Assembly: GCF_022565775.1 (NCBI RefSeq)
Contig: NZ_JAIUMC010000007.1
Coordinates: 1-64,000, forward strand
Source: Natronospirillum sp.
Lineage (GTDB): Bacteria > Pseudomonadota > Gammaproteobacteria > Pseudomonadales > Natronospirillaceae
Direction: 5' to 3'
DNA: 64,000 nt
Shown: positions 17,004-31,867 of the stretch, piece by piece
Layout of the letters: each line of letters opens with the position of its first letter
Position numbering within the stretch: position 1 is the stretch's first letter
Position numbers and translations under genes: made by a program
Notes under the pieces: generated by a model
What the model saw: the letters and a program-made list of their open reading frames with translations, nothing else
Database searches by the model: none
Told to the model about the DNA's origin: nothing

Positions 17004-17621
17004 ATGAAACTGAGTCATTTTTTCGCCTACTTGAACCGTTTGCGCTGGATCAGACGCTGGGGCCTGAAACGCAACGTGGTGGAAGAAAACGTGATGGAGC
17101 ACAGTTGGCAGGTGGCCACCATTGCCCACGCGCTTGCGGTGATCAGCAATCGCCATTTTGACGGCAATCTGGATGCCGAGCGTATTGCCGTGCTGGGCCT
17201 GTATCATGATGTCAGTGAAGTGATCACCGGTGATATGCCGACGCCCATCAAGTATCACTCTCCGACCATCACCCAGGCCTACAAGGCCATCGAAGAAGAA
17301 GCCGAACGGGATATTCTCGGCATGCTGCCCGAATCACTGCAGCCCGACTTCAGAAACCTGCTGCTGCACGAAAATATCCCGGAAGAACAGCAGCGCATCG
17401 TCAAGTATGCGGACCTGATCAGTGCCTATCTGAAATGCGAGGCCGAAATCAGGGCCGGCAACACCGAATTTTCGAGTGCCTTCACGCAGATAGAAAACCG
17501 CATCCGGGATACCGGCGCTCCGGAGGTCGACTATTTCATGAGCCATTTCGTGGAAGCCTATACCCTGACCCTGGATGACATGCTCAACTACCATGATCGC
17601 TCCATTGGACTGAAAAAATAG
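17004..17621 (+). CDS. yfbR: 5'-deoxynucleotidase YfbR (HD domain)
   Basis: A 205-residue HD-domain phosphohydrolase that removes the phosphate from deoxynucleoside 5'-monophosphates. The metal site residues fall exactly at the positions of E. coli YfbR: H33 (MEHSWQ), H68-D69 (GLYHDVSE) and D137 (YADLIS). It starts 5 bp after the TRAP permease, an arrangement with no obvious metabolic meaning. A short GCGG/CCGC hairpin follows the stop but is too weak to call a terminator. Confidence 0.92.
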   Translation: MKLSHFFAYLNRLRWIRRWGLKRNVVEENVMEHSWQVATIAHALAVISNRHFDGNLDAERIAVLGLYHDVSEVITGDMPTPIKYHSPTITQAYKAIEEEAERDILGMLPESLQPDFRNLLLHENIPEEQQRIVKYADLISAYLKCEAEIRAGNTEFSSAFTQIENRIRDTGAPEVDYFMSHFVEAYTLTLDDMLNYHDRSIGLKK

Positions 17622-17682: not shown

Positions 17683-19341
17683 TTGACTGAAACATTGCCT
17701 GCAGAAAAATCGAAGAAGCTCAAACCGCTCTACAAGATGACTTTTCTGGTGGTGGATGATTTCCCCAGCGCCCGCAAATCCGTGCGCACCATGCTGACCC
17801 AACTCGGCATCGAAAACATCTTTGAAGCCGCCAACGCCGTGCAGGCCAAAAAACTGCTGAAAGACCGCCAGTTCGACATGGTCATCTGTGATTTCAACCT
17901 CGGCCCGGGCCAGGACGGCCAGCAACTGCTTGAGGAAATGCGTACCACCGGCGCCATAACCCGCATGACACAGTGGATCATCATCACGGCAGAAACATCG
18001 CGTGACATGGTGATGGGGGCAGTGGAATACCAGCCTGACGACTACCTCGCCAAGCCGTTTGCTTTCGATACTTTCAAGCTGCGCCTGGAAAAGCTGGTGC
18101 GGCGGATCAACGAACTCGAACCCCTGCTGAGCGCCATGGACACCGATGATCACAGCGCCCTGCTGGCCGCCTGTGAAGGGGTCATCGAAACCCAGCCGCG
18201 TTACCGGGCCTGGGCCAGACGCATACTGATCAATGCCCTTATTCAACAAAAGCAGTTGACGCGCGCCGAACAGTTGCTGGATGAAGTGCTGGAGAAACGC
18301 CAGCAAGACTGGGCCCTGTATGAAAAAGCCCGCATCCAGATGCACCATGGCCGCTACAATCCTGCCATTGCCCTGCTGATGGAGGTGGTCAATACCAACC
18401 CCAACAATGTCGCGGCCTATGACAGTCTGGCCGATTGCTATATGGAACTGGGGCAGACAGAGAAAGCCCAGCAGGCGCTGCTGAATGCGGTCAGAGTGTC
18501 ACCGCGTCGTCTCGAGCGTCAGCGCCGTCTGGCCGAGATCAGCAAGGAGCAGCATGACTATGTGATCTCCACCAAGGCCTATCGGGAAGCACTCACCCTG
18601 GCCAGCAATACCCGCCACGATACACCGGACAACTACATCAACCTCGCCGACACCTTGAACACGGCAGCCCGCCGCGGCGCCGACAAGGATCTGCGCAATG
18701 CCTCGCGACAGGCGCAGCAGGTCGCACAGCGGCTGACCCAGCGGTTTCCGGAAAATGTGCCCCTGCAGATCAAGAGTCGTCTGATTCAGGCGGAATCACT
18801 GGACATTCAGGGCCTCGAAACAGCGCGTGATGTCGAGATCGACAAGGTGTTCGACCTGTCCATGCGTCATATCGAAGACATCAGGCAGCCCTTCGCCCTG
18901 GAAGTCGCCAGTGAATTCTATCGCTTCGAAAAACAGAAACAGGGCGACGATTGGGTCGATGCGCTGCGCAAGCAGCATGAAACCGACCTGCCCTTCCAGC
19001 AGAAACTGCTGATGCTGCAAAGCGAACCGGTGTCGGAAAAATCCCGCAAGCGCGCGGCTACGCACAACAAGGCCGGCAACGAGGCCTACCGGGATGGCAA
19101 GTTCCGGGATGCACTGAAACATTTTACCCGTGCTCTCGAGTATTCACCGCGGCATCCCGGACTCATCCTCAATATCGTGCAGGGTTATTTCAAGCTGTAT
19201 CGCGCCGAGCCGGAAGCCGAGCATATCTACAACATGGAGCATTATCTGCGGCGTCTGACCTATCTGCCGCAGGACCACTATCAGTACGACCGCTACCAGG
19301 CGCTGTGCAAGCGCCTGGACCTGCTCAAGGAGAACAGTTGA
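17683..19341 (+). CDS. Response regulator receiver protein with C-terminal TPR domain
   Basis: A 552-residue cytosolic protein. Residues about 20-140 form a CheY receiver with acidic pocket D25-D26, phospho-acceptor D70 (VICDFNLG), T102 (IIITAET) and K124 (LAKPF). From about 150 to the end there are TPR repeats (for example NNVAAYDSLADCYMELGQTE) and an all-helical C-terminal part; there is no DNA-binding or enzymatic output domain. The TTG at 17683 has a poor ribosome-binding site; ATG 17737 would leave only one residue before the receiver strand, so the longer start is kept with reservation. Its TGA is followed at once, in frame, by the ATG of a histidine kinase, so the two are probable partners. 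Output is likely protein-protein interaction. Confidence 0.88.
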   Translation: MTETLPAEKSKKLKPLYKMTFLVVDDFPSARKSVRTMLTQLGIENIFEAANAVQAKKLLKDRQFDMVICDFNLGPGQDGQQLLEEMRTTGAITRMTQWIIITAETSRDMVMGAVEYQPDDYLAKPFAFDTFKLRLEKLVRRINELEPLLSAMDTDDHSALLAACEGVIETQPRYRAWARRILINALIQQKQLTRAEQLLDEVLEKRQQDWALYEKARIQMHHGRYNPAIALLMEVVNTNPNNVAAYDSLADCYMELGQTEKAQQALLNAVRVSPRRLERQRRLAEISKEQHDYVISTKAYREALTLASNTRHDTPDNYINLADTLNTAARRGADKDLRNASRQAQQVAQRLTQRFPENVPLQIKSRLIQAESLDIQGLETARDVEIDKVFDLSMRHIEDIRQPFALEVASEFYRFEKQKQGDDWVDALRKQHETDLPFQQKLLMLQSEPVSEKSRKRAATHNKAGNEAYRDGKFRDALKHFTRALEYSPRHPGLILNIVQGYFKLYRAEPEAEHIYNMEHYLRRLTYLPQDHYQYDRYQALCKRLDLLKENS

Positions 19342-20046
19342 ATGGCCGACCCACAGAAGCCTGCAGACCCGCTCGACATGACGGCCGTTCTGGCCTCCAC
19401 TGTCCATGATGTCAAAAACTCCCTGGGCCTGATCAGCGCGCAGATTGAAGAAGTTACCGCCACCCTGCGCGATACCGACCCCGGGTCTGCCGACAAGTTG
19501 AACCGCATATTGCTGGAAAGCAACCGCATCAACAGCGGGCTGAGCCATATGCTGGGGGTCTATCGCATCGACAACCAGTTGCTGCACCCCAGTCTGGAAG
19601 AGACGCTGGTCATGGATGTGCTGGAAGAGGCCGCTACCCGCTATGCAGGCAATCTGGAACAGCAGAAGATCACTCTCGACATCGACTGCGAAGACGAAGA
19701 GCTGACCTGGGTCATGGATGCCAGCCTGGCCGATCATGTACTGACCAACATACTGACCAATGCCATCCGCTACACCAAAGACTGGATCGGGCTATCTGCC
19801 CGCGTGGAAAACGATCAGTTGTGCATTGCCATTGACGACAACGGCAGTGGTTATCCCGATGCCCTGCTCAACTGTCTTGAGCCGGATGCCAGTCTGCGTG
19901 TCAGAACCAGCAGCACCGGGCTGGGTATCTATTTTGCCGATGGCATAGCCCGCCTGCACCATAACTCGGACACGGGCGAGACGGGTCGCATCGAACTCGT
20001 CAACAAGGAAGGTGGCGGGGCCCGGTTTGCTCTTTGGCTGCCTTAG
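19342..20046 (+). CDS. Soluble histidine kinase
   Basis: A 234-residue kinase without membrane segments or a sensory domain. The phospho-acceptor H22 lies in the H-box STVHDVKNSLGLI, followed by a HATPase domain with N-box LTNILTNAIRYT, G1 box DDNGSGYP and G2 region STGLGIYF. It should phosphorylate the receiver of the preceding TPR protein. It begins directly after that gene's TGA in the same reading frame with no room for a separate ribosome-binding site, so translation depends on termination-reinitiation or on readthrough. The input signal is unknown and may come through a binding partner. Confidence 0.9.
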   Translation: MADPQKPADPLDMTAVLASTVHDVKNSLGLISAQIEEVTATLRDTDPGSADKLNRILLESNRINSGLSHMLGVYRIDNQLLHPSLEETLVMDVLEEAATRYAGNLEQQKITLDIDCEDEELTWVMDASLADHVLTNILTNAIRYTKDWIGLSARVENDQLCIAIDDNGSGYPDALLNCLEPDASLRVRTSSTGLGIYFADGIARLHHNSDTGETGRIELVNKEGGGARFALWLP

Positions 20047-20068: not shown

Positions 20069-20560
20069 CTAGGATTTGGTTTCCCACAGGTCCTTCCCAT
20101 CGGGTGCACTGGCGGGTTCCCCGGTTTGAACGCCCTGTGTAACCCGGTTCAGCAGTATGGCAATCAGGTTGTCTTTTATTTTTTCCCGCGCGGTGACCGG
20201 CAATCGGTTCATATGCTCGCGCTTCAGACGGAATATTGCCGCCCTGGATTCACAGCGTACCGAGCCGGTACGGGGTATAGGACGCAAGAAGGACACCTCA
20301 CCAAAGCAATGGCCTCGGCCAATATCGGCCACCTTTTCACCTTCGCTCCAGACACTCAGCAGCCCGTTGAGCACCACATACAGAGAAGAGTCCTTGTCGT
20401 CACCCTCCATGATGATCCATTCACCCTCCTTGAACGCCAGCAGCTCAGGGCCATGCATCAGCAGAATCTTCTTCTCGTCATCGGAAAACCGGGAGAAAAA
20501 GTCCGCCTTGGCCAATATCTCCAACTGCTTTTCACGACTCAGGTGATCGACAACCTGCAT
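20069..20560 (-). CDS. Cyclic-nucleotide-binding domain protein
   Basis: A 163-residue single-domain protein with the CRP-type jelly roll. KEGEWIIMEGDDKDSSLYVVLNG and the phosphate-binding cassette FGEVSFLRPIPRTGSV are recognisable; the Arg of the cassette is present. No helix-turn-helix follows, only a short helical tail, so it is not a transcription factor by itself. I use the ATG at 20560; the ORF track's 20635 adds 25 non-conserved residues. It is convergent with the histidine kinase across 22 bp. It might regulate a partner in response to cAMP or c-di-GMP; this is inference. Confidence 0.85.
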   Translation of the reverse strand: MQVVDHLSREKQLEILAKADFFSRFSDDEKKILLMHGPELLAFKEGEWIIMEGDDKDSSLYVVLNGLLSVWSEGEKVADIGRGHCFGEVSFLRPIPRTGSVRCESRAAIFRLKREHMNRLPVTAREKIKDNLIAILLNRVTQGVQTGEPASAPDGKDLWETKS

Positions 20561-20680
20561 GATGATGCGCCTCTTCCCGCTGCTGATTGCCGAAAGTCTA
20601 GCACCTGAATTGCCCGTAAAGCGGACAGTTTTCACAAAATACTGCGATCACCGCAAAAAAAATCCGAAATACGTCAAAAC

Positions 20681-20803: not shown

Positions 20804-21304
20804 ATGAACATGAAACAGGGTTTACCAATTGGTTTGCTCGGGGCCGCACTGTGTCTGCTGACGGCTTGTGATGACAGCAGCAATGGCAATTCAAGTGGCG
20901 GCGGTGGAGGTGGAGGCGTCAGTGGTGGTGCCACAATCAATGTAAGTGGCAACATCACCAGCCTGAGCGATATCGTCGGCGTCTATGAAGACTTCTATGA
21001 TGAAGGTGGCGGCATTATCGACGAGATCTATATTGAAATCGCCGCCGATGGCACCGTCTGGGAACATGACTACCAGGGCGACAGCTATCATCAGGGGCCA
21101 AACTGCTACGACATTTGGGAATGGGACGAGATAGAACATCGGGGTGGCAACACCTTCTACAGCGATATGTCTTTCGCCGAGTTCGAGGCTCGCTTCGAGA
21201 ACAACCGCCTGATCATGGACTATGGCAACGGTTGGGAAGAGGAATACGGTCCCAAAGTCAACATTGATCCGGCCAACTTCCGTGCCGCGGAGTGTACCGA
21301 CTGA
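20804..21304 (+). CDS. Small acidic lipoprotein of unknown function
   Basis: A 166-residue predicted lipoprotein: signal sequence with lipobox LLTAC (C22), then a Ser/Asn/Gly linker with seven glycines in a row, then an acidic beta-rich domain of about 110 residues containing LSDIVGVYEDFYDEGGGIIDEIYIEI. The residue after Cys is Asp, the inner-membrane retention signal under the E. coli Lol rule, though this rule is not universal. Two cysteines in the mature domain (GPNCYDIW and RAAECTD) may pair. Not recognised as a named family. It stands alone between operator copy 1 and a strong hairpin, so it is probably monocistronic. Confidence 0.85.
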   Translation: MNMKQGLPIGLLGAALCLLTACDDSSNGNSSGGGGGGGVSGGATINVSGNITSLSDIVGVYEDFYDEGGGIIDEIYIEIAADGTVWEHDYQGDSYHQGPNCYDIWEWDEIEHRGGNTFYSDMSFAEFEARFENNRLIMDYGNGWEEEYGPKVNIDPANFRAAECTD

Positions 21305-21493: not shown

Positions 21494-23146
21494 TTGCCGC
21501 TCACCCATCGATCAGGGAGCTCTCCTGTCCCCCAGCCGAGCGGCTGTCGCTCCGGCATGCTGTGCAAAACCCTTCTGCCAATGCTGGTTGTGTTCCTGAT
21601 TCCCCTCGCACAGGCTACCAGCATTGGCACCGTTATCATGAGCCGTGGTGATGTGATCGCTGTCGGCGAAGACGGCACCGAGCGCGAGCTGGCGCGCCGC
21701 AGCGAGGTCATGCTTGGCGACCAGCTGAGCACCGGCCCGGACAGCCGCCTGCAGGTGCGCATGGTAGATGACGCTCTGCTCGACCTGCGCAGCAACACCG
21801 ACATAGTGCTCGAAATCTATCAGGACGATCTGGATGACGAAGAATCCCGCGTACTGATGGAACTGGTTGGCGGCACCCTGAGCACACTGACCGGGCGCTT
21901 TGGGGACAGTGATGAAGACGCCTACCAGCTGCGCACCAGCAATGCCTCCATCGGTATTCGCGGCACCGGCTATGCCGCTCTCTATGAAGAAGGCTCGAAC
22001 ACCACCTACACCTCCATCAATTCCGGTGCGATAAATCTGGGTTCGGATGGCGGCTCTATTCCGCTCGGCACCGATGAAGCCTTTCGCCACGGCCAGGCGC
22101 AGGACAACTTGCCCCCGCAGGGACTGCTGACGCCACCACCACAGCTTCGTCAGGCCCTGCTGGATGAACAACTGGTGCGCGAAGAAGACGACGATGAAGA
22201 GTCTGATGAAGGCACGGCAGACAACGAAGGTGACACCGCCTCGTCCGCACCGGCGCCTTCGACCACCCCGGACGACGAGACTATCACAGGTGATGTCAGC
22301 CTGGCCGATCTGCGCGATGACAGCGTCTCGGAAAGCGATGTCGATGAGAACGGGCTGACCGATGCCCGGCTGCCGGAGGCTATTGTAGAGGCTGCCGTCG
22401 AGTCACAGGTGTTTCTGACGGCAGCTTCTGGCTCTTTCGGTTCCCAGTTCGGTCTATTCGCCAACACTCCGGAAGACGGCATCTATGCCCTGCTCTACCC
22501 CGACTATCCGGACCTGTCTGACGGCTATGAAGAGGCGTTTCAGGTCATTCGATTCTCGGACGACCCAGAGTTGGAAATAGTTTTCTGTGGCGAAGGCTTA
22601 CAAGATCCAGAAATCTTTTGCGACTCTGAAGGCAATACACAGGGTTGGTTCTGGGGTTACTGGGACAGCGGGCTGGAAGTCGCTGTCAGGGATGACTATG
22701 AAGAGCTTGATCAGCTCTGGGTCATGCAGGTGCCGGCGGATACTTCGATTGACGGCTTTACTGAGGAGATATTTTTCAGCTCTCAGTCTGGCGAATTCAT
22801 GGGCACCATGATGGATGGGACACAGTTACTGAGCAATAGCCTTCTGGAGATGGGCATCAGCAGCACAGGAGAAGTGCAATTTGGAACTCTGGAAATCAAT
22901 ACTGGCGATTTGAGCTGGAGCATGACTTCTGGCGGCGGCCAACTTATTGATGCCGGCACGCTGAATATCGACGATTTTGCCGGGACCTGGGAATTAGGAC
23001 CCGAAGAATATGACCTGACAGGAGATGTAAGTGGCGTATTTCGGTTTGACAATGGCTACTACTTTCTCGGGACATTCTCAGCTAGTGCAGATGATCCCGA
23101 CGGACATTCTGCGAGCGGCATTATTATTGCCCCAGAGGGCCCATAA
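21494..23146 (+). CDS. Exported FecR-domain protein (paralogue 1)
   Basis: A 550-residue exported protein. A signal peptide (core LLPMLVVFLIPLAQA) is followed by a FecR-type domain (about residues 45-175 from GTVIMSRGDVIAVG to the signature NASIGIRGTGYA), a proline/acidic linker (LLTPPP, then EEDDDEESDEGT), and a beta-rich C-terminal part of about 270 residues ending GYYFLGTFSA...GIIIAPEGP. TTG 21494 is chosen because GGAGG lies 8 nt upstream; ATG 21557 would give a minimal signal peptide. Unlike true FecR there is no membrane-spanning anti-sigma segment and no sigma factor neighbour. Paralogue of the 27.2-kb gene; both flank two Slam-like barrels. The C-terminal part may be a surface-displayed beta domain; this is inference. 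Confidence 0.82.
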   Translation: MPLTHRSGSSPVPQPSGCRSGMLCKTLLPMLVVFLIPLAQATSIGTVIMSRGDVIAVGEDGTERELARRSEVMLGDQLSTGPDSRLQVRMVDDALLDLRSNTDIVLEIYQDDLDDEESRVLMELVGGTLSTLTGRFGDSDEDAYQLRTSNASIGIRGTGYAALYEEGSNTTYTSINSGAINLGSDGGSIPLGTDEAFRHGQAQDNLPPQGLLTPPPQLRQALLDEQLVREEDDDEESDEGTADNEGDTASSAPAPSTTPDDETITGDVSLADLRDDSVSESDVDENGLTDARLPEAIVEAAVESQVFLTAASGSFGSQFGLFANTPEDGIYALLYPDYPDLSDGYEEAFQVIRFSDDPELEIVFCGEGLQDPEIFCDSEGNTQGWFWGYWDSGLEVAVRDDYEELDQLWVMQVPADTSIDGFTEEIFFSSQSGEFMGTMMDGTQLLSNSLLEMGISSTGEVQFGTLEINTGDLSWSMTSGGGQLIDAGTLNIDDFAGTWELGPEEYDLTGDVSGVFRFDNGYYFLGTFSASADDPDGHSASGIIIAPEGP

Positions 23147-23269
23147 CTCAGTCTCGCCTCACGGCACCAGACTGGACAACACGTTTTATAACGCTATCGA
23201 TCAGGCCTTACGATAGCACCCTATGGAAATCGGGTCGAAGGACCCTGTGCATATCAAGAGGAAGATACA

Positions 23270-24376
23270 ATGAACAAATTGGCGCTAATGTCTCTTTCTG
23301 GGGCCGTTTTAGTAGCCATTGTCGGCTGTAACAGTGACTCCGGCTCCGGCGGTTCAAACTCCCCTGAAAAAAGAACATCGGCACGCAGTGGAATGGAACT
23401 TAATCCCAGTACTGATGCCGCCGAGCTGAGCCAACTTTTTGCCGGGAGTCTTGGCGGTGATCTGCCCGGAGGATCAAGTGTCGGCGACTTACCAATAGTT
23501 GCTACAACACTCGAAGCTCGGAGCAGTCAGCCCTCGAACAACGCAGGCGTCCTTTTCACCGAGCTGATGACGCAGATCGAACTGGTCAATGAGCAACGTC
23601 AACGCAATCTGTATGCACGCAATGGAGAAGAGCCCAATTTTGGGGACATGTTCGAACAGCTATGTGAGACTGGCAGCGCTAGCTACAGCCAAACAGACAC
23701 ATTGGTCAGCCTGGACTTCAGCAACTGTAGGACAGATTTGGGGAGCGAGGGCGAAATTCGGATCACTGGCGGTCTGAGTGTAGCTGCATCCAGCGGCAAC
23801 CTTGATAACGCCATTTCGGACACATGCACGGACGAAAGTATCAGCGCCACATTCAAAGCCGATGACCTCTGGTATAGATTTTACGATGGCAGCGGCAACC
23901 GAGTTGAATCGGTATTTATAGCAGCTGATGTTACCTTCTCTGCCGATGAGGACTGTGCTGCCAAAACAACCAGCAGCTCTGTTTCAGGCCCCTATTTCTT
24001 CGTAAATGTAGAAGGTGACTGGTTCGGTTTCTACAATTTCGGTTTCTCGGTTTCTCTTGATGAGTCGAATGCCAGCAATCCATTGACTGAGGGTTCCGTC
24101 GATTTCACTTTCGACAGTTCCGAGCTGACTGGCAGCCTGACCATCGAAACAACTCAGGACTTTGCCGCTTTTCAGGATCCTGGCTACCCCCATGCGGGAG
24201 AAATGAAAATCCGCAGTGGTAACAATGAGCTGGTGTATACCTTCCCGAATTTGATCGACTCCCCGGACCCAGAGAGTGAACAAGTAACCATCACCGGCCG
24301 GTCCGACCAATCACAGGTATGTCAGGGCCAGAGCTCCTGGGCCCAGATGAACAACGGCCAGGCCAGCTGTAACTGA
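23270..24376 (+). CDS. Lipoprotein of unknown function
   Basis: A 368-residue predicted lipoprotein with lipobox AIVGC (C20) and a short Ser/Gly linker. The mature part is acidic and beta-rich with several Cys (FEQLCETG, DFSNCRTD, SDTCTDES, DEDCAAKT, SQVCQGQS, ASCN), which could form disulfides in the periplasm or on the surface. No family recognised. AGAGGAAG precedes the ATG. It follows FecR paralogue 1 by 124 bp, where I see no copy of the 11-bp operator, so it may be read through from that gene or have its own promoter. AT content is a little higher than in neighbours, which may hint at separate history. Confidence 0.82.
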   Translation: MNKLALMSLSGAVLVAIVGCNSDSGSGGSNSPEKRTSARSGMELNPSTDAAELSQLFAGSLGGDLPGGSSVGDLPIVATTLEARSSQPSNNAGVLFTELMTQIELVNEQRQRNLYARNGEEPNFGDMFEQLCETGSASYSQTDTLVSLDFSNCRTDLGSEGEIRITGGLSVAASSGNLDNAISDTCTDESISATFKADDLWYRFYDGSGNRVESVFIAADVTFSADEDCAAKTTSSSVSGPYFFVNVEGDWFGFYNFGFSVSLDESNASNPLTEGSVDFTFDSSELTGSLTIETTQDFAAFQDPGYPHAGEMKIRSGNNELVYTFPNLIDSPDPESEQVTITGRSDQSQVCQGQSSWAQMNNGQASCN

Positions 24377-24449
24377 TAACTTGCAGTACCCAAGGGAAGA
24401 GACGCGCCCATGGAGGGGCCTGTTATGAACATAAAAAAGAAGCCGTTGC

Positions 24450-25850
24450 ATGAAATTACTCATCACAAATGCACCACCCACCGAGTTTGGCCACCGGCCA
24501 GCGCACGCGCTGGGCCGGTGCGCCCTTTTCGGCCTTGTTTTTCTGGCGCTGCTTTGGGCGGCGCCTGTAATGGGTCAGTCGACCCTGAGCACTGCGCCCA
24601 CCTCCATCAGCGGCGTTGATCCGGAACTGCGCAACCTCGAAGGTCTGCAGCAGCTCACCCGAGAGAACCGCTGGCGTGAGGCGACACTGGTCGCTGAAGA
24701 CCTGCGCGCCGAATACGAAGGCGATCCGGCATTTGACCTTCAATATGGCCTGGTCAACCTGGCCAATAATGACCCTGCCGCCGCAGTTTATCCGCTGGAG
24801 CGTGTGGTCATCATGCAACCCGCCAACAGCCGCGCGCGGCTGGAACTGGGTCGGGCCTATTATGAACTGCGCCGCTGGGACGATGCCCGCAGCCAGTTTC
24901 AGCGCGTCCAGGCCTCCAGTCCGCCCCCCAGTGTCCAGGCCAATATCAATCGCTACCTGACTGCCATCGAACAGCGGGAGCGTGACGAGGCCGGTGCCTG
25001 GCGCGGCACCGCCAGCCTGACGGGCCTCTACCAGAGTCGCAGCTATGGCAATGATGTCGACTTCGGTGGTGGCAGCTTCAGTATTGATGACGCCAGCGAT
25101 TACCGGCTTATCGGTCAGGTGGATGTACGACGCGAATTCCGGCGCAGCAACTTTGTGACCAATGGTGTGGGCATTCGGGTGTCCGGTGGTCTGGAAGCCA
25201 ACGGCGATCTGGATTTCGCCGACCCTGATCTGGGTCTGCGCGCCTTCCGCAACTACACTCGCACCACCTGGGGCTTCAGCACCGGGGTGGAAGTGCGCCT
25301 GCTGAGCCAGTCACTGCGTGGCCGTATCGAGGGCAACCGTGAGCTGGCCGAGTCGGTGCAGGGCTTTCTGCGTTATGAGCCCATTTTCTCGCTGGATGGC
25401 CCGATCAACGAACAGTGGATCAATCGGGTTACGGCCGGTGCCCAGTTCAACGGCGGGCAGATGCGTCACCGGGGCACGATCACCGCGCAGCACTATTACA
25501 ACCTGCGCTCCGGATCAAATGCGGAGAACACTACTGCAGAACGCAGTGACCTGTTCAACACCACTTTGGAATACCGCTTTCAGTATGTACTGGACCCGCA
25601 ATGGACGCTGGGCGTAACGCCGTCCCTGTCCATTACCCAGTGGCTGGAAGACAACCCGTTCAACCAGGTAATTGGTGACGAAGACCGGCGGCGCGATATC
25701 AGCTTCACGGTATTGCCCAATGCGATCTGGCTGCCGGAACCCTGGCTGTACACCCAGGCCAGCGTGGGCTATCGAATTACCCGCAGCAACCTGGATCTTT
25801 ATGATAACAGCGGCCCCGTAGTGCAGTTGACCGCCGCCTATATCTGGTGA
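24450..25850 (+). CDS. Slam/DUF560-like TPR beta-barrel outer-membrane protein (copy 1)
   Basis: A 466-residue exported protein: long signal region (FGLVFLALLWAAPVMGQS), TPR domain at about residues 60-175 (YPLERVVIMQPANSRARLEL, QFQRVQASSPPPSVQANINR), then a C-terminal barrel of alternating strands ending in an aromatic residue (LTAAYIW). The TPR ending PPP-S-V-x-x-N-I followed by a barrel is the layout of surface lipoprotein assembly modifiers (Slam, DUF560, type XI secretion), which flip lipoproteins to the cell surface or release soluble cargo. The GYDTNVN block seen in copy 2 is replaced by LYQSRSYGND. The ribosome-binding site is weak. It lies 40 bp before copy 2. Function by family resemblance, not proven. 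Confidence 0.75.
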   Translation: MKLLITNAPPTEFGHRPAHALGRCALFGLVFLALLWAAPVMGQSTLSTAPTSISGVDPELRNLEGLQQLTRENRWREATLVAEDLRAEYEGDPAFDLQYGLVNLANNDPAAAVYPLERVVIMQPANSRARLELGRAYYELRRWDDARSQFQRVQASSPPPSVQANINRYLTAIEQRERDEAGAWRGTASLTGLYQSRSYGNDVDFGGGSFSIDDASDYRLIGQVDVRREFRRSNFVTNGVGIRVSGGLEANGDLDFADPDLGLRAFRNYTRTTWGFSTGVEVRLLSQSLRGRIEGNRELAESVQGFLRYEPIFSLDGPINEQWINRVTAGAQFNGGQMRHRGTITAQHYYNLRSGSNAENTTAERSDLFNTTLEYRFQYVLDPQWTLGVTPSLSITQWLEDNPFNQVIGDEDRRRDISFTVLPNAIWLPEPWLYTQASVGYRITRSNLDLYDNSGPVVQLTAAYIW

Positions 25851-25890
25851 TTGTTCGGGGCCGTCGCCCCGCCCTGCCGAGGCAGCAAAG

Positions 25891-27222
25891 ATGACAATTC
25901 GAAAGCAGATGCTCTGTCTGTTTCTTTGTGGAGGCCTGCTCGGTTCCTCTGCATTCGCGGTGACCGGCGATCTCGCTCAGTTGGTCAACCAGCAGCGCTT
26001 TGACGAGGCCTGGGCGTTGGCGCTGGACCATCGGTTTGATCGGGAAGGCGAGATAGAGTTCGATCTGTACTATGGCATGGCCGCCATCGAAACCGGCCAT
26101 TTCAGCGAGGGGGTTTTCGCGCTGGAACGGGTGGTCATGCAGAGGCCGGGTTTCGCCCGTGCCCGCCTGGAACTGGCCAGGGGCCACTTTCTCGCCGGAG
26201 ACCTCGACCGCGCTGCCTACCATTTTGAAATGGTGCAGGCGCAGGACCCGCCCCCCACTGTATCCGTGATCATAGACCGCTATCTGCAACGCATCGAGCA
26301 GCGCTCGGCTCGTCGCGAAACGCGATTCAGCGGGTCAGTGGGTATCGGCCTCGGGTATGACACCAATGTGAACAGTGCCACCTCCAGTGACCAGATCAGC
26401 GTGACACTGGGTGGACTCGATGCCGATCTGCAACTGGATGCCGACAGCCAGGCAAAAGACGACCTGTTTCTGACCCTGCGCGGTGATGGCCGTGTGGACC
26501 ATCCGGTCGGCGAGCGCTGGACGGTGTTTGGCCAGATCGAGGCGGCAGCGCGGCGGCAGCCGGATGAATCGGATTTCGATACCCTGCGTCTGGGCACTCG
26601 CGTGGGTGGGCGCTGGCAGGGAGACGGCATCGTGCCACAGGTGGCGCTGCGGGCGCAGCGCTTCTATCTGGATGGCGATGCGTTTCAGGATCTGCTGGGT
26701 ATCTCAGCCAGCCTGAACCAGTCACTGTCGCCGTTCATGCTCGCTACCTATGGCCTGGAACTGGCCAACCTGAGCCATGATGACAGCCCCGACAGTGATG
26801 CCAATCTGGCATCCGGGTCAGTCGGTCTGGTTCATGCCTGGCGAGCCCCGCTGTCTCCTCTGGTCAATGCCTCGGTGTTTGCCGGTGTTGTCGATGCGCG
26901 TCGATCCACCACCGCCGCCGAGGCCAATACGGATCGCTGGCAGACCGGTTTGAATGTGCAGGGTCGGCTGCAGCTCAACCCTTCCTGGCGGCTTTCCAGC
27001 GCTGTGCAGTATCGCCACAGTCGATACAGTGGGCGCAATCCGCTGTTCGACAACGACCGACGGGTGGATGACTTTCTGCAATTCAGCCTGGCAGCCGACT
27101 GGCAGCCCATGCCACGCGTTCAGGTGACGCCGCGCGCGGAGTATCGAACCAACCGCAGCAACCTTGACCTGTATACCTACGACCGCGCAGTGGCTGAGCT
27201 TCAGGCCCAGTACCGGCTCTGA
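25891..27222 (+). CDS. Slam/DUF560-like TPR beta-barrel outer-membrane protein (copy 2)
   Basis: A 443-residue paralogue of the preceding gene: signal peptide (LFLCGGLLGSSAFA), TPR region (about residues 30-145, with FALERVVMQRPGFARARLELARGHF and MVQAQDPPPTVSVIIDRYL) and a barrel beginning FSGSVGIGLGYDTNVNSA, the entry strand typical of DUF560. The C-terminus (VAELQAQYRL) fits a final barrel strand. The two copies also share the C-terminal block TRSNLDLYDNS/NRSNLDLYTYD. Two tandem translocator-like proteins beside two FecR proteins suggest matched pairs. It ends 17 bp before FecR paralogue 2. Confidence 0.77.
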   Translation: MTIRKQMLCLFLCGGLLGSSAFAVTGDLAQLVNQQRFDEAWALALDHRFDREGEIEFDLYYGMAAIETGHFSEGVFALERVVMQRPGFARARLELARGHFLAGDLDRAAYHFEMVQAQDPPPTVSVIIDRYLQRIEQRSARRETRFSGSVGIGLGYDTNVNSATSSDQISVTLGGLDADLQLDADSQAKDDLFLTLRGDGRVDHPVGERWTVFGQIEAAARRQPDESDFDTLRLGTRVGGRWQGDGIVPQVALRAQRFYLDGDAFQDLLGISASLNQSLSPFMLATYGLELANLSHDDSPDSDANLASGSVGLVHAWRAPLSPLVNASVFAGVVDARRSTTAAEANTDRWQTGLNVQGRLQLNPSWRLSSAVQYRHSRYSGRNPLFDNDRRVDDFLQFSLAADWQPMPRVQVTPRAEYRTNRSNLDLYTYDRAVAELQAQYRL

Positions 27223-27239
27223 GTGGAGGATCGACCCTG

Positions 27240-28937
27240 ATGATACCCTATCCTGCTCCGACTCCCGCCAGCGCTGCTACTGCGGCCGCCGGCTATCGAC
27301 GACAACTGCGCCATTGGTTGCTGGTGACCTGGCTGCTGGCCGCCCTGCCGGCCTCCACTGTGGCTGAAGAACTGGTGGGCCGTGTGGTCTCTGTCGTTGG
27401 CGAAGTCATTGCCATCCGCCCCGATGCAACCGAGCGTCGCCTGCAACGGCGCAGTGACGTTCTGGTGGGTGACACCTTGGTCACCGGTGCCAACGGACGC
27501 GCGCAGATCCGCTTTGTGGACGACGGTCTGCTCGATCTGCGCCCCGACTCCGAACTCTATATCGAGGCCTATGCCGAAGCGACCGAGGAGACCCCAGGCA
27601 GTGCGGTGCTGGAGTTCTCCCGCGGTGCGCTGCGCACCATCAGCGGCCGCATCGGTCAGGAAGCCGGTGATCGCTATCAGATGGATACGGCACCGGCCAG
27701 CATCGGTATCCGCGGCACCGACTATGCACTGCAATATTGTGCGGCCGCCTGCATCGAGGCAGGTGGTAGTGAAGGCCTGTATGGCCGCGTCAACGACGGT
27801 GCCATTACGGTTACCAACCTGACGGGCACTGCGGACTTCGAGTCCGGTCAGTTTTTCGGCGTGGCAGATCAGAATACGCCTGCACTGCCAATCCCTCGGC
27901 CTCCACCAGGTGTTCTGAACGGCAGTGAAGGGGGCGAAAATGGCGATGGAGAGGACGACGACCTCGTAGGGCAGGAAGACTTTTCCGAAGCGCCGGATGA
28001 ACTGGAGGATGACCCATCGGAGCTCACTCTCGAGCGCGACCTGCTGATCACGCCGGGCCTCGATACTTCAGGACTGATTGGTGAAGATGACAACGGCGAT
28101 ACGCCAGAGCCGGGCAATGGCGATGATCCTGAGCCGGATGAGCCAGACCCCTCTGAGGTAACGCGAGTCATGTCAGGGCTGTTTGCCTACACCGCCTATG
28201 GCAATACTCAGACAGTCTCCGGCCTGATTCGGGAGAGTGAGGTCAGCGAAGGCAATTTCACGCTTTCAGACAGCAGTGTCACCGAAGCCTTCTTCGACGA
28301 CGATAACAGCGTCATCGTGGATACCGATGCCGACCTGGTAGGTGTAGGCAGTTGGACCTCACTCGATGGCACTTCAACGGTCGACTGGGGTCGCTGGACA
28401 TCTTCCAACAAGGGCCTTTTCGATGTCGTCAGTGAGGGTGGCTCTATCAACTTTAGCGGCAGCCCCAACCAACCCGACTTTGTTTTCTTTTATAGTGAAG
28501 ACCTGACCTCGCCCGAACAACTACAGGCGCTGGATGGCACCGTGACCTATGACCAGTTTCAGGGGCCGGATTTCATCATTAGCACGCAGAACGGTGAACT
28601 GGACCTGATTGAATGGACCATGGTTCTGACCGTAGACTTCGCAGCGATAGAAGCGGGTGTGGAAATGGACATTGTCACGGCCCTGATTTCCTACAATGTC
28701 GACACGGCGCAGACGAGCGTGGACTCGTTGTTCCTGTTCGAACTGCCCCTTGAAGGCACCTGGACGGACGGCACCAACACCGAGGATCTCGAAGGGCTGC
28801 TCAATGGCCAGTTCATCGGTGAAACGGCGGATGGCTTTCTGTTCTACTTCACGCTGGATCAGCTTGAAGATGGCGATGTCATCGATACGCTGCTGGGCAA
28901 CCAGTTGATTACCACCGAAGATGGCCCGGCCAACTGA
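27240..28937 (+). CDS. Exported FecR-domain protein (paralogue 2)
   Basis: A 565-residue exported protein with a signal peptide (WLLVTWLLAALPASTVAEE), a FecR-type domain (about residues 43-190, GRVVSVVGEVIAIRPDAT to PASIGIRGTDYA), a linker PIPRPPPG, an extended Asp/Glu/Pro segment (EPGNGDDPEPDEPDPSE) and a beta-rich C-terminal domain of about 260 residues with LLNGQFIGETADGFLFYFTL near its end. That last pattern, G-x-F-x-G then a long strand, resembles TbpB-like beta domains that are cargo of Slam translocators; this comparison is by eye. GGAGG lies 10 nt before the ATG. It is 17 bp after Slam copy 2 and 2 bp before a glycosyltransferase. Confidence 0.82.
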   Translation: MIPYPAPTPASAATAAAGYRRQLRHWLLVTWLLAALPASTVAEELVGRVVSVVGEVIAIRPDATERRLQRRSDVLVGDTLVTGANGRAQIRFVDDGLLDLRPDSELYIEAYAEATEETPGSAVLEFSRGALRTISGRIGQEAGDRYQMDTAPASIGIRGTDYALQYCAAACIEAGGSEGLYGRVNDGAITVTNLTGTADFESGQFFGVADQNTPALPIPRPPPGVLNGSEGGENGDGEDDDLVGQEDFSEAPDELEDDPSELTLERDLLITPGLDTSGLIGEDDNGDTPEPGNGDDPEPDEPDPSEVTRVMSGLFAYTAYGNTQTVSGLIRESEVSEGNFTLSDSSVTEAFFDDDNSVIVDTDADLVGVGSWTSLDGTSTVDWGRWTSSNKGLFDVVSEGGSINFSGSPNQPDFVFFYSEDLTSPEQLQALDGTVTYDQFQGPDFIISTQNGELDLIEWTMVLTVDFAAIEAGVEMDIVTALISYNVDTAQTSVDSLFLFELPLEGTWTDGTNTEDLEGLLNGQFIGETADGFLFYFTLDQLEDGDVIDTLLGNQLITTEDGPAN

Positions 28938-28939
28938 CC

Positions 28940-30139
28940 ATGCCCACGGTCCTGCTGGTCTGGGAACTGGGTCTGAATCTGGGCCATGTGCGTCGCCTGG
29001 AGTCTCTGGCAGAGGCACTGATGGCGCGCGGTTGTCGAGTGATGATCAGCGCTCGGGAACCAAAGGTAGCAAACGCCATGGCCTGCCAGTGGACGGTAAA
29101 GCCGGCCCCGAAAACACCGGCCCGTCCTGACCGTGACCCGCCCAAAGCACCACAGTACAACTATGCAGATCTGCTGCGCGGCCTGGGCTACGACGATCAC
29201 ACTGCCTTGCCGGCTGCGGTACAACCCTGGCTGGACCAAATCGGCGAGATCAAACCGGATTGCCTGATTGCCGACCACGCCCCGACGGCCATGCTGGCTG
29301 CTCGCCTGGCCGGACTGCCCGCCTGCCCGATCGGGGTTGGGTTTCATGTGCCTCCGCTGTCCCGACCCATGCCACCGTTCAAGTGGTGGCGCCCCTCGCC
29401 GCCGCGGGTGCGTTTACGCGAGGTTGAACGGGCGGTATTGAGCAGTGTCAATCACCTGCTGGCAGATCATCAGAAGCCGGCGCTGGACAGTGTCTCGGCG
29501 CTGCTGGAAGGGCCACGGCGTTTTCTGACCACAATGCCCGAGCTGGATGAATATCCTGAACGACCGCAGGGTGAACACTATACCGGGTTTCCTCTCAGTC
29601 CCGGGACAGGCTACTGGCCCGACTGGCCAGCGGGCGACGGTCCTAAAATTCTGGGCTATCTGCGCGCCGACTATCCGGCCGTGTATACCGTGCTGCAAAG
29701 CCTGTCCGCTTTGCCGGTGCGGGCACTGGTCTATGTCGGAGGCAGCACGGCAGCTCAGTGCAAAAGCTGGACATCGGAGCGGGTCCGGATTGTGGACCAG
29801 CCACTTGATTTGGAGAGGGGCGCCGAGACCTGTGATATCGGCCTGAACTATGCCAGCAACGCCTTTGTCGCCCAGGTGTTGCGCGCCGGCAAACCGCTGT
29901 TGCTGTTGCCACCATTCGACCAGCAGATGATGCTGGCCCAGCGTCTGGTGCAACAGCGCTGTGGTCGGCTGATCAATCCTGCCTGGACCAGCGAACAGTG
30001 GTTCACGGTGCTGCAGGAAATGCTGGAAGACGCTCCTTGGCAGCAGGGAGCACAGCGCATGGCGCAGATCATCAGCGAGTATCCGGATGGGGTTGCCATC
30101 ATGGCCGAGATAGCCGACGAGATCTGTGCCTTGATGTGA
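28940..30139 (+). CDS. GT1/GT28 (MurG/UGT-like) glycosyltransferase
   Basis: A 399-residue cytosolic GT-B fold enzyme. The N-terminal acceptor domain begins TVLLVWELGLNLGHVRRL (a UGT/MurG-like first Rossmann strand with a G-H), and the C-terminal donor domain carries YVGGSTAAQ and the nucleotide-sugar region PFDQQMMLAQRLVQQRCGRLI. The usual E-x-x-x-P-x-x-x-x-Q is partly represented by AGKPLLLLPPFDQQ. It starts 2 bp after FecR paralogue 2, so it is very likely cotranslated with it. Acceptor unknown; modification of the cluster's exported proteins or synthesis of a lipid glycoside are both possible. Family is clear, role is inference. Confidence 0.82.
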   Translation: MPTVLLVWELGLNLGHVRRLESLAEALMARGCRVMISAREPKVANAMACQWTVKPAPKTPARPDRDPPKAPQYNYADLLRGLGYDDHTALPAAVQPWLDQIGEIKPDCLIADHAPTAMLAARLAGLPACPIGVGFHVPPLSRPMPPFKWWRPSPPRVRLREVERAVLSSVNHLLADHQKPALDSVSALLEGPRRFLTTMPELDEYPERPQGEHYTGFPLSPGTGYWPDWPAGDGPKILGYLRADYPAVYTVLQSLSALPVRALVYVGGSTAAQCKSWTSERVRIVDQPLDLERGAETCDIGLNYASNAFVAQVLRAGKPLLLLPPFDQQMMLAQRLVQQRCGRLINPAWTSEQWFTVLQEMLEDAPWQQGAQRMAQIISEYPDGVAIMAEIADEICALM

Positions 30140-30261: not shown

Positions 30262-31791
30262 TCAGTCGTCATCATCATCGTCATCACCGTTGCTATCGAT
30301 TGTAGGTACAGTGAAAGCACGCTCGGCTTCGAGGTCGTTGTACTCAAGCTTCAGTACAACCTGATCCCCGGCCTGGATATCGTCATTGTCGGCCAGAGTT
30401 GCCAGGTACTGGTAGACCAGCCCGATCTGGATGCTTTCGAAGGCATTCAGGAGCTCAGTCTCGGCACCGTCATCTTCGACATGGACGAAATCACCACCGG
30501 TCTCTTCGGCCAGAGCTTTCAGGTCATTGTAACCACCCGACCCCTCTGTCACACCCAGAGCTATCGAGTAAACCGGGATCCCTTTGCTGCTGGCATTGTC
30601 AATGGGGATCTGGGAACTATGCGGTGCCCGATTATTCTCCCCATCACCCATTGTCACTACAGCCTTGCGGCTGTTGGAACGAGCAGCAACCGCATCCACC
30701 GCCTGATCCACAGCGCCGAACAGGGCGGTAGCACCGTCCCAGTTGTATGAGCTCGCAATGGAAATATCAGGTGTTGCCGGATGTGGCTCGGGTTGGTAGT
30801 CAGTGCCGTTGGTAAACGGACTGTGATAGAGGCTGCTGTAGGGAAGATAAAGATCAACAGCGAATCTCAGTGCCTCTTCCTGACTGGTGAACCCTGACTC
30901 AGAGAAAGTGTATTCTGTCTCCTCGTCATCGCTGTCCCTGAGATCCATTCCCTCAAGGAGGCTATCATTAACAATGTCAACCTCATTGTCGAATATCATG
31001 ACAGCCGCTTCATCACCTGAGCTCTTTTCATTCAGGAAGAGATGCGACGCCTCATGCGCGACGTGATAACGAGTGTAGTCGTTGCCGTCATCATCTTCGA
31101 AAACAATGCCGGATATTGGTGGCTTCATTGAACCGCTGGCATCCAGCACCAGCATGATCGATGCATCCTCGCGGCTCTGTCGGGCCGAAGTCACATTAGC
31201 CAGCCGGACATCAGTCGACTCATGAGTCAGCGTAAACGCATCTCTCGGCAAGCCGATCACCGGACGCCCGGTTTCGGTATCCGATACAGTGAAGCCAAGA
31301 CGGCCATCACTCTGCCGGAAAAGAGAACGTATTTCGTACTCCGCATCTTCCGATATGGTGCTGACGATGGCCATGTCGTCATCGCTGTCTCCACTTGAGC
31401 GACGGAACATATTGACATCAGTGCTGATCGGACGACGGCCTTCGGGCTCGGCAACCAGACGGGATGCATCCGGCCTGTTTTCAGTGCGGAATATGCCACA
31501 GTCATCAGAGGCTATGTCTTCACCAACCTGCGACCCTCCATCATCCAGAAAGCTGATATCTGTGTTGGCAATACGTTCGTAGCCAGAGGGCACGCTGCCG
31601 TCACACGAGTCATCCGAACGACCCATGAGCCGGGCTCGCTCAAGGAGGTTTGCGTCGGCGTCAGCCGATTGTTCAGGCGCGATCAGAATACCGCCGATTT
31701 CATCCGCGTCGTCCGAAGAAGAACCGGAACTGTTGCAGCCTGCGACGACTGCAGCCCCGGCGAGTATAAGAGCCAGTTTGCTGATATTCAT
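30262..31791 (-). CDS. von Willebrand factor A domain lipoprotein
   Basis: A 509-residue lipoprotein with lipobox AVVAGC (C19) and a Ser/Asp linker. After a region of about 170 residues comes a VWA domain (about residues 195-450) with a canonical MIDAS DxSxS motif in LVLDASGSMKPP, the threonine/aspartate elements AVVTMGDGENN, and an insert between them. The last seven residues are all Asp, an unusual acidic tail. The start 31791 has GGGAAGG 7 nt upstream, better than 31809 of the ORF track. It is transcribed alone from operator copy 3 to the terminator at 30.2 kb. VWA domains bind protein partners through a metal ion; partner unknown. Confidence 0.87.
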   Translation of the reverse strand: MNISKLALILAGAAVVAGCNSSGSSSDDADEIGGILIAPEQSADADANLLERARLMGRSDDSCDGSVPSGYERIANTDISFLDDGGSQVGEDIASDDCGIFRTENRPDASRLVAEPEGRRPISTDVNMFRRSSGDSDDDMAIVSTISEDAEYEIRSLFRQSDGRLGFTVSDTETGRPVIGLPRDAFTLTHESTDVRLANVTSARQSREDASIMLVLDASGSMKPPISGIVFEDDDGNDYTRYHVAHEASHLFLNEKSSGDEAAVMIFDNEVDIVNDSLLEGMDLRDSDDEETEYTFSESGFTSQEEALRFAVDLYLPYSSLYHSPFTNGTDYQPEPHPATPDISIASSYNWDGATALFGAVDQAVDAVAARSNSRKAVVTMGDGENNRAPHSSQIPIDNASSKGIPVYSIALGVTEGSGGYNDLKALAEETGGDFVHVEDDGAETELLNAFESIQIGLVYQYLATLADNDDIQAGDQVVLKLEYNDLEAERAFTVPTIDSNGDDDDDDD

Positions 31792-31867
31792 GGGATTACC
31801 TTCCCTCATTTTTGTTGCTGCTTGAATGTCCCCTTGCGCAGAAGGTTTCTGGAAGGGTCAGTAACCC

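Follow-up and report, generated by a model that had tools for sequence, protein, structure and literature searches.

What might be exported by two Slam-like outer-membrane barrel proteins whose genes are bracketed by genes for FecR-domain proteins? This arrangement occurs in a 64,000-nucleotide stretch of DNA from Natronospirillum sp. (contig NZ_JAIUMC010000007.1, positions 1 to 64,000; hereafter the window), where a cassette of six genes, all on the plus strand, occupies positions 21557-30139 in the order FecR1, an orphan lipoprotein, barrel 1, barrel 2, FecR2 and a glycosyltransferase. A preliminary description made from the sequence alone had viewed the barrels as translocators of the type XI secretion system (T11SS; Slam/DUF560) and the FecR proteins as their cargo. 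Our analysis supports that view. We put at about 0.7 the probability that the locus consists of two cognate T11SS translocator-cargo pairs, in each of which a FecR-headed cargo is exported via its partner barrel. The best reading is that such pairs represent a large environmental branch of the T11SS, in which the cognate cargo combines a FecR head with a TbpB-like tail.

Pairing of barrels and FecR proteins

The pairing of barrel and FecR genes is no accident, and it is widespread in water-living Gammaproteobacteria. When barrel 2 was used to search 57 related genomes, a FecR gene was found repeatedly directly after the barrel gene. Pairs were counted with profiles of the barrel, the FecR head and the C-terminal domain, and barrels scoring at least 120 bits were treated as high-scoring. 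In an order-level set of 295 genomes, with loci taken from the barrel search, a FecR gene lies directly downstream of 37 of the 46 high-scoring barrels, and the C-terminal domain is recognized by profile in 26 of the 37. A class-level set of 274 genomes, with loci chosen by SlipAM alone, gives a directly downstream FecR gene for 17 of 19 high-scoring barrels. Low-scoring barrels, which include canonical SlipAM proteins, have a downstream FecR gene in 5 of 54 cases (4/39 in the order set and 1/15 in the class set). Searching from the other side, with loci found by the FecR motif only (the named set), a barrel is immediately upstream of FecR in 60 of 65 loci from Saccharospirillum, Reinekea, Bermanella, Hahella, Thalassolituus, Pseudoalteromonas, Psychrosphaera, Colwellia and others. 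Some genomes occur in both the named and the order set, which are therefore not independent of each other. Part of the training material for the profiles also came from the named set, which makes the class set the cleanest test. Four of the five FecR domains in the window's own genome are located at barrels.

The association can extend to a single polypeptide, as the N-terminus carries a fused FecR domain in 5 of the 46 high-scoring barrels of the order set. In these fusions the FecR head precedes the TPR, and the head should therefore be periplasmic.

The barrel proteins

Barrel 1 (24450-25850, plus strand) and barrel 2 (25891-27222, plus strand) both have TPR matches in Pfam, and both run from TPR through PPP into the barrel, just as had been described. 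The search with the DUF560 profile placed barrel 2 in the family: it matches SlipAM (PF04575) over positions 26335-27192 with 27.7 bits against a cut-off of 22, and it is the outer-membrane protein of a T11SS by this assignment. TPR_Slam was reported for neither window barrel, though it is found in 13 of 47 family barrels, of which 17 have a SlipAM match.

Judged by family homology, barrel 1 belongs to the same family as barrel 2. It scores 254 bits against the family barrel profile, whose alignment contained barrel 1, and an independent link is provided by its match (6.9e-86) to the barrel of a relative locus, L044. A canonical full-length profile matches barrel 2 at 81 bits and barrel 1 only in the TPR, the latter match being a second independent link for barrel 1. 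With its TPR removed, the barrel profile of the family could be aligned over 287 columns with a set of ten canonical SlipAM barrels (E 4e-23, 99.5%). A sequence search of the PDB with the full barrel profile returned TPR proteins only.

The window's genome holds a third pair on contig 82 (L031, 2-5915), where a FecR-TPR-barrel fusion is followed by a FecR protein and then by a large lipoprotein that matches Ig/PKD weakly.

The FecR proteins

FecR1 (21557-23146, plus strand, 529 aa) has a Sec/SPI signal peptide, a FecR domain, an acidic linker and a C-terminal beta domain, and FecR2 (27240-28937, plus strand, 565 aa) has the same layout, with a signal peptide and a putative TbpB-like C-terminal domain. 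The start of FecR1 is most likely at 21557, where an ATG gives a signal peptide that has no lipobox; the position given earlier, 21494, is upstream of it. In both proteins the signal peptide runs straight into the FecR region, and PF04773 is above its cut-off (2e-9 and 1.9e-8; 21719-22033 in FecR1).

The C-terminal domain is the part that would resemble known cargo. A model of this domain from a Saccharospirillaceae relative (L065; 27 sequences) reached a pLDDT of 86 and a pTM of 0.83, and its best PDB matches were the NHBA C-domain (1.6e-7), the TbpB C-lobe (6.9e-7), intact TbpB and HpuA (9.7e-4), with moderate TM-scores of up to 0.66 by target length. The family is thus predicted to fold as a TbpB-like T11SS cargo barrel, in agreement with the small beta barrel that had been anticipated. 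TbpB and HpuA are lipoproteins brought to the surface by Slam proteins (PMC8406197). For the individual window proteins, the expectation holds unevenly. The FecR2 domain (28107-28937, plus strand) is clearly homologous to the modelled family, with 35 bits in a two-sequence search against a profile built without it. The FecR1 domain (22340-23146, plus strand) may likewise be TbpB/HpuA-like by homology, with weaker support: its profile score is weak, it is linked to the family through L044, and HpuA is the first match, also weak, after the FecR-head matches of the full-length model. TbpB_B_D is above its cut-off in two FecR proteins, including the partner of the fused barrel on contig 82, which is the sole match in the window's genome.

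Some FecR proteins found downstream of barrels are much longer. Those of L165 (2-4978) and L161 (1-3504) are at least 1659 and at least 1168 aa, both being cut by contig ends, and they are reminiscent of large adhesins; Pfam recognizes FecR only.

Two lineages in one cassette

The two pairs had been taken for a duplicated translocator-cargo set, and this does not hold. Barrels 1 and 2 are about 25% identical, and the two pairs are separate lineages because each has its own nearest relative, so local duplication was rejected. The nearest relative of both barrel 2 and FecR2 is N. operosum, followed for both by the same class-level loci, whereas the nearest relative of both barrel 1 and FecR1 is L044. 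This phylogeny identifies FecR1 as the partner of barrel 1 and FecR2 as the partner of barrel 2. More broadly, barrel and FecR tree distances agree across 104 pairs, with a Mantel r of 0.69, whereas shuffles reached 0.11 at most.

Proposed mechanism

In the export pathway we favor, each barrel protein would place a TPR domain in the periplasm and a beta-barrel in the outer membrane. The FecR protein would pass through Sec to become a non-lipidated periplasmic intermediate, and its TbpB-like C-terminal barrel would then be recognized by the TPR/barrel of the partner and translocated across the outer membrane in the manner of known T11SS cargo. Secretion, its direction and the part of the protein that ends up outside are features that we infer. 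The partner proteins always have the FecR head and usually have the cargo-type tail. Since the head is constant and lies on the periplasmic side in the fusions, its most likely place of action is the translocator's periplasmic face.

Several observations weigh against this reading. Pfam finds TPR alone in barrel 1 and no SlipAM match, and the DUF560 assignment made earlier for both barrels stands directly for barrel 2 and through family homology for barrel 1. The comparison of barrel-only profiles included no non-T11SS barrel as a control. The C-terminal domain has low confidence in the full-length model of FecR1 itself. Nine of the 46 order-level barrels have no FecR gene directly downstream; one of these is barrel 1, whose partner is upstream. 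In 5 of 37 and 4 of 17 loci, the tail of the partner FecR protein is shorter than 150 aa, which leaves no room for the C-terminal domain; some of these short-tailed partners are possibly products of contig ends or broken frames. Finally, the agreement between barrel and FecR trees partly reflects shared species history.

Alternative explanations

The existence of short-tailed partners means that the head is constant and the tail only usual, which keeps a threaded or anchored arrangement as a live rival. Here the C-terminal domain would be passed outside while the FecR head acts as a periplasmic plug, like the retention modules of LapA, perhaps signalling inward. Such an arrangement would refine the export reading rather than oppose it, and we regard it as tentative, a minority possibility to be taken seriously. 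Part of the evidence for it comes from the head. Most of the FecR1 head is modelled with high confidence, and the head matches both a Parabacteroides anti-sigma factor structure and the cell-surface anchoring domain of MpAFP (5ix9, listed as an antifreeze protein), the latter at 0.8 A over 62 columns. A sequence search of the PDB with the FecR profile gave mostly low-complexity matches, plus a weak match to the antifreeze protein. The NCBIfam model NF033682 (retention_LapA) matches 34 of 45 family FecR proteins, with a best value of 2.2e-8. This resemblance of the FecR head, in sequence and in fold, to the LapA/MpAFP retention module, which holds giant adhesins in the cell wall, is a new point. 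In FecR1 the sequence match spans 21626-21814 (plus strand; model positions 4-66). However, it extends over no more than the first half of the module, and matches are below the curated cut-off in all cases shown; the window proteins score 22-25 bits, where the cut-off is 50. FecR domains are also common periplasmic modules with other roles. The fusion of FecR to the periplasmic end of some barrels would suit a plug, but the fused domain may be a docking site instead.

A second operon type also lends itself to threading. At nine loci (L209, L201, L188, L185, L203, L195, L198, L200 and L207), the gene of a lower-scoring SlipAM-like barrel is preceded, at a distance of about 3 kb, by a FecR gene. 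The intervening gene is of one size in the loci inspected, and in L209 it encodes a CHASE2-cyclase. A divergent Crp-type regulator is present in L209, with similar genes at other loci of this type, and a large uncharacterized protein follows in several of them. This operon type, which links FecR and a barrel to a CHASE2 cyclase, is a further new point. The window pairs have no direct link to a cyclase; a cNMP-binding protein and a response regulator/ATPase pair are encoded upstream of the cassette. Somewhat more speculative still is the full version of the idea, a T11SS branch that leaves its cargo threaded, with the head locked periplasmically against the translocator and the TbpB-like domain outside. 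The cargo would then serve as a surface sensor or an anchored adhesin, and in some operons it would report to the CHASE2 cyclase.

FecR is a signalling domain of anti-sigma factors, and it could be argued that nothing is secreted at all: the FecR proteins would signal in the periplasm, with the barrel as their passive partner in the outer membrane, on the model of FecA-FecR regulation. A FecR-CHASE2 kinase operon involved in biofilm formation is indeed known from Burkholderia, reported without a barrel (PMC5192318). We nevertheless consider this explanation unlikely. The FecR proteins have no cytoplasmic anti-sigma part, and a Pfam scan of the cassette revealed no such part, no sigma factor and no TonB-dependent receptor or transducer. 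The T11SS-cargo fold predicted for the C-terminal domain would also be left unexplained.

Polysaccharide export by EpsL/PgaA-like TPR porins working with the adjoining glycosyltransferase is highly improbable, as the EpsL (TIGR03014) match of barrel 2 is 28.8 bits against a cut-off of 275, while SlipAM passes its own cut-off and conservation of the pair does not extend to the glycosyltransferase.

Relation to known systems

Two cognate translocator-cargo pairs would share with the T11SS of the DUF560/Slam type (PF04575, PF24575) a periplasmic TPR with an outer-membrane barrel, an adjacent cargo gene and a TbpB-like cargo end, and with subcluster 1B a non-lipidated SPI cargo (PMC8406197; PMC9090332). 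The window family differs in forming a low-scoring branch of the profile, in a cargo that begins with a FecR domain, in a usual order of barrel then cargo, and in the FecR domain fused to some barrels. Of the ten T11SS clusters, nine are mostly from water and soil and had no characterized protein (PMC8406197). Marine cluster 3 is likewise environmental; TbpB-type cargo was reported to be rare and cargo was largely missing there, and its frequent neighbor is DUF1194, in contrast to FecR in the window family (PMC12282271).

The window proteins share the FecR fold with anti-sigma regulators (PF04773; PDB 4m0h), but they lack an inner-membrane helix after the signal peptide and have a putative cargo-type C-terminal domain. 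About 62 head residues resemble the LapA/MpAFP retention module (NF033682; PDB 5ix9) in sequence and fold, whereas the match covers half the module and the window cassette has no type 1 secretion genes. In the Burkholderia operon, as in the second operon type, an exported FecR protein is encoded next to a CHASE2 sensor; the Burkholderia operon differs in having a LysM-FecR protein with a histidine kinase (PMC5192318).

A literature search, which did not cover subscription papers, found no paper joining FecR with DUF560 or T11SS. As FecR neighbors go unmentioned in the T11SS literature searched, the term "new cargo class" used in the preliminary description is fair. A cognate cargo class, with matched pairs, can thereby be named for a large environmental T11SS branch. 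If the assignment is true, a retention-like FecR head, fused to some translocators, would link the export of proteins with anchoring or signalling in the periplasm.

Other genes of the locus

The compact organization reported earlier was borne out, with intergenic gaps of 123, 73, 40, 17 and 2 bp. Promoter and terminator sites were no more frequent in a scan than in shuffles. The orphan lipoprotein (23270-24376, plus strand) has a VGC lipobox and no relatives in the 57 related genomes searched; it had been called Cys-rich, and its 7 Cys in 368 aa are not notable. The glycosyltransferase (28940-30139, plus strand) adjoins FecR2, and among the relatives searched it is found beside a barrel-FecR pair in this genus only. 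Both genes were rejected as core parts, neither being conserved with the barrel-FecR unit across relatives.

Upstream of the cassette, a small Gly-rich lipoprotein (20804-21304) has no Pfam or NCBIfam match, and a cNMP-binding protein (PF00027) is encoded on the minus strand (20069-20635); proteins with similar N-termini adjoin L030 and L044. Farther upstream (17683-20046) lie genes for a TPR-containing response regulator and a HATPase protein. Genes like these are seen repeatedly beside family barrel-FecR loci, together with a YfbR-like gene (17004-17621 in the window). Right after the cassette, on the minus strand (30262-31809), lies a gene for a VWA-domain lipoprotein with a weak match to DUF1194, the family found beside marine T11SS (PMC12282271).
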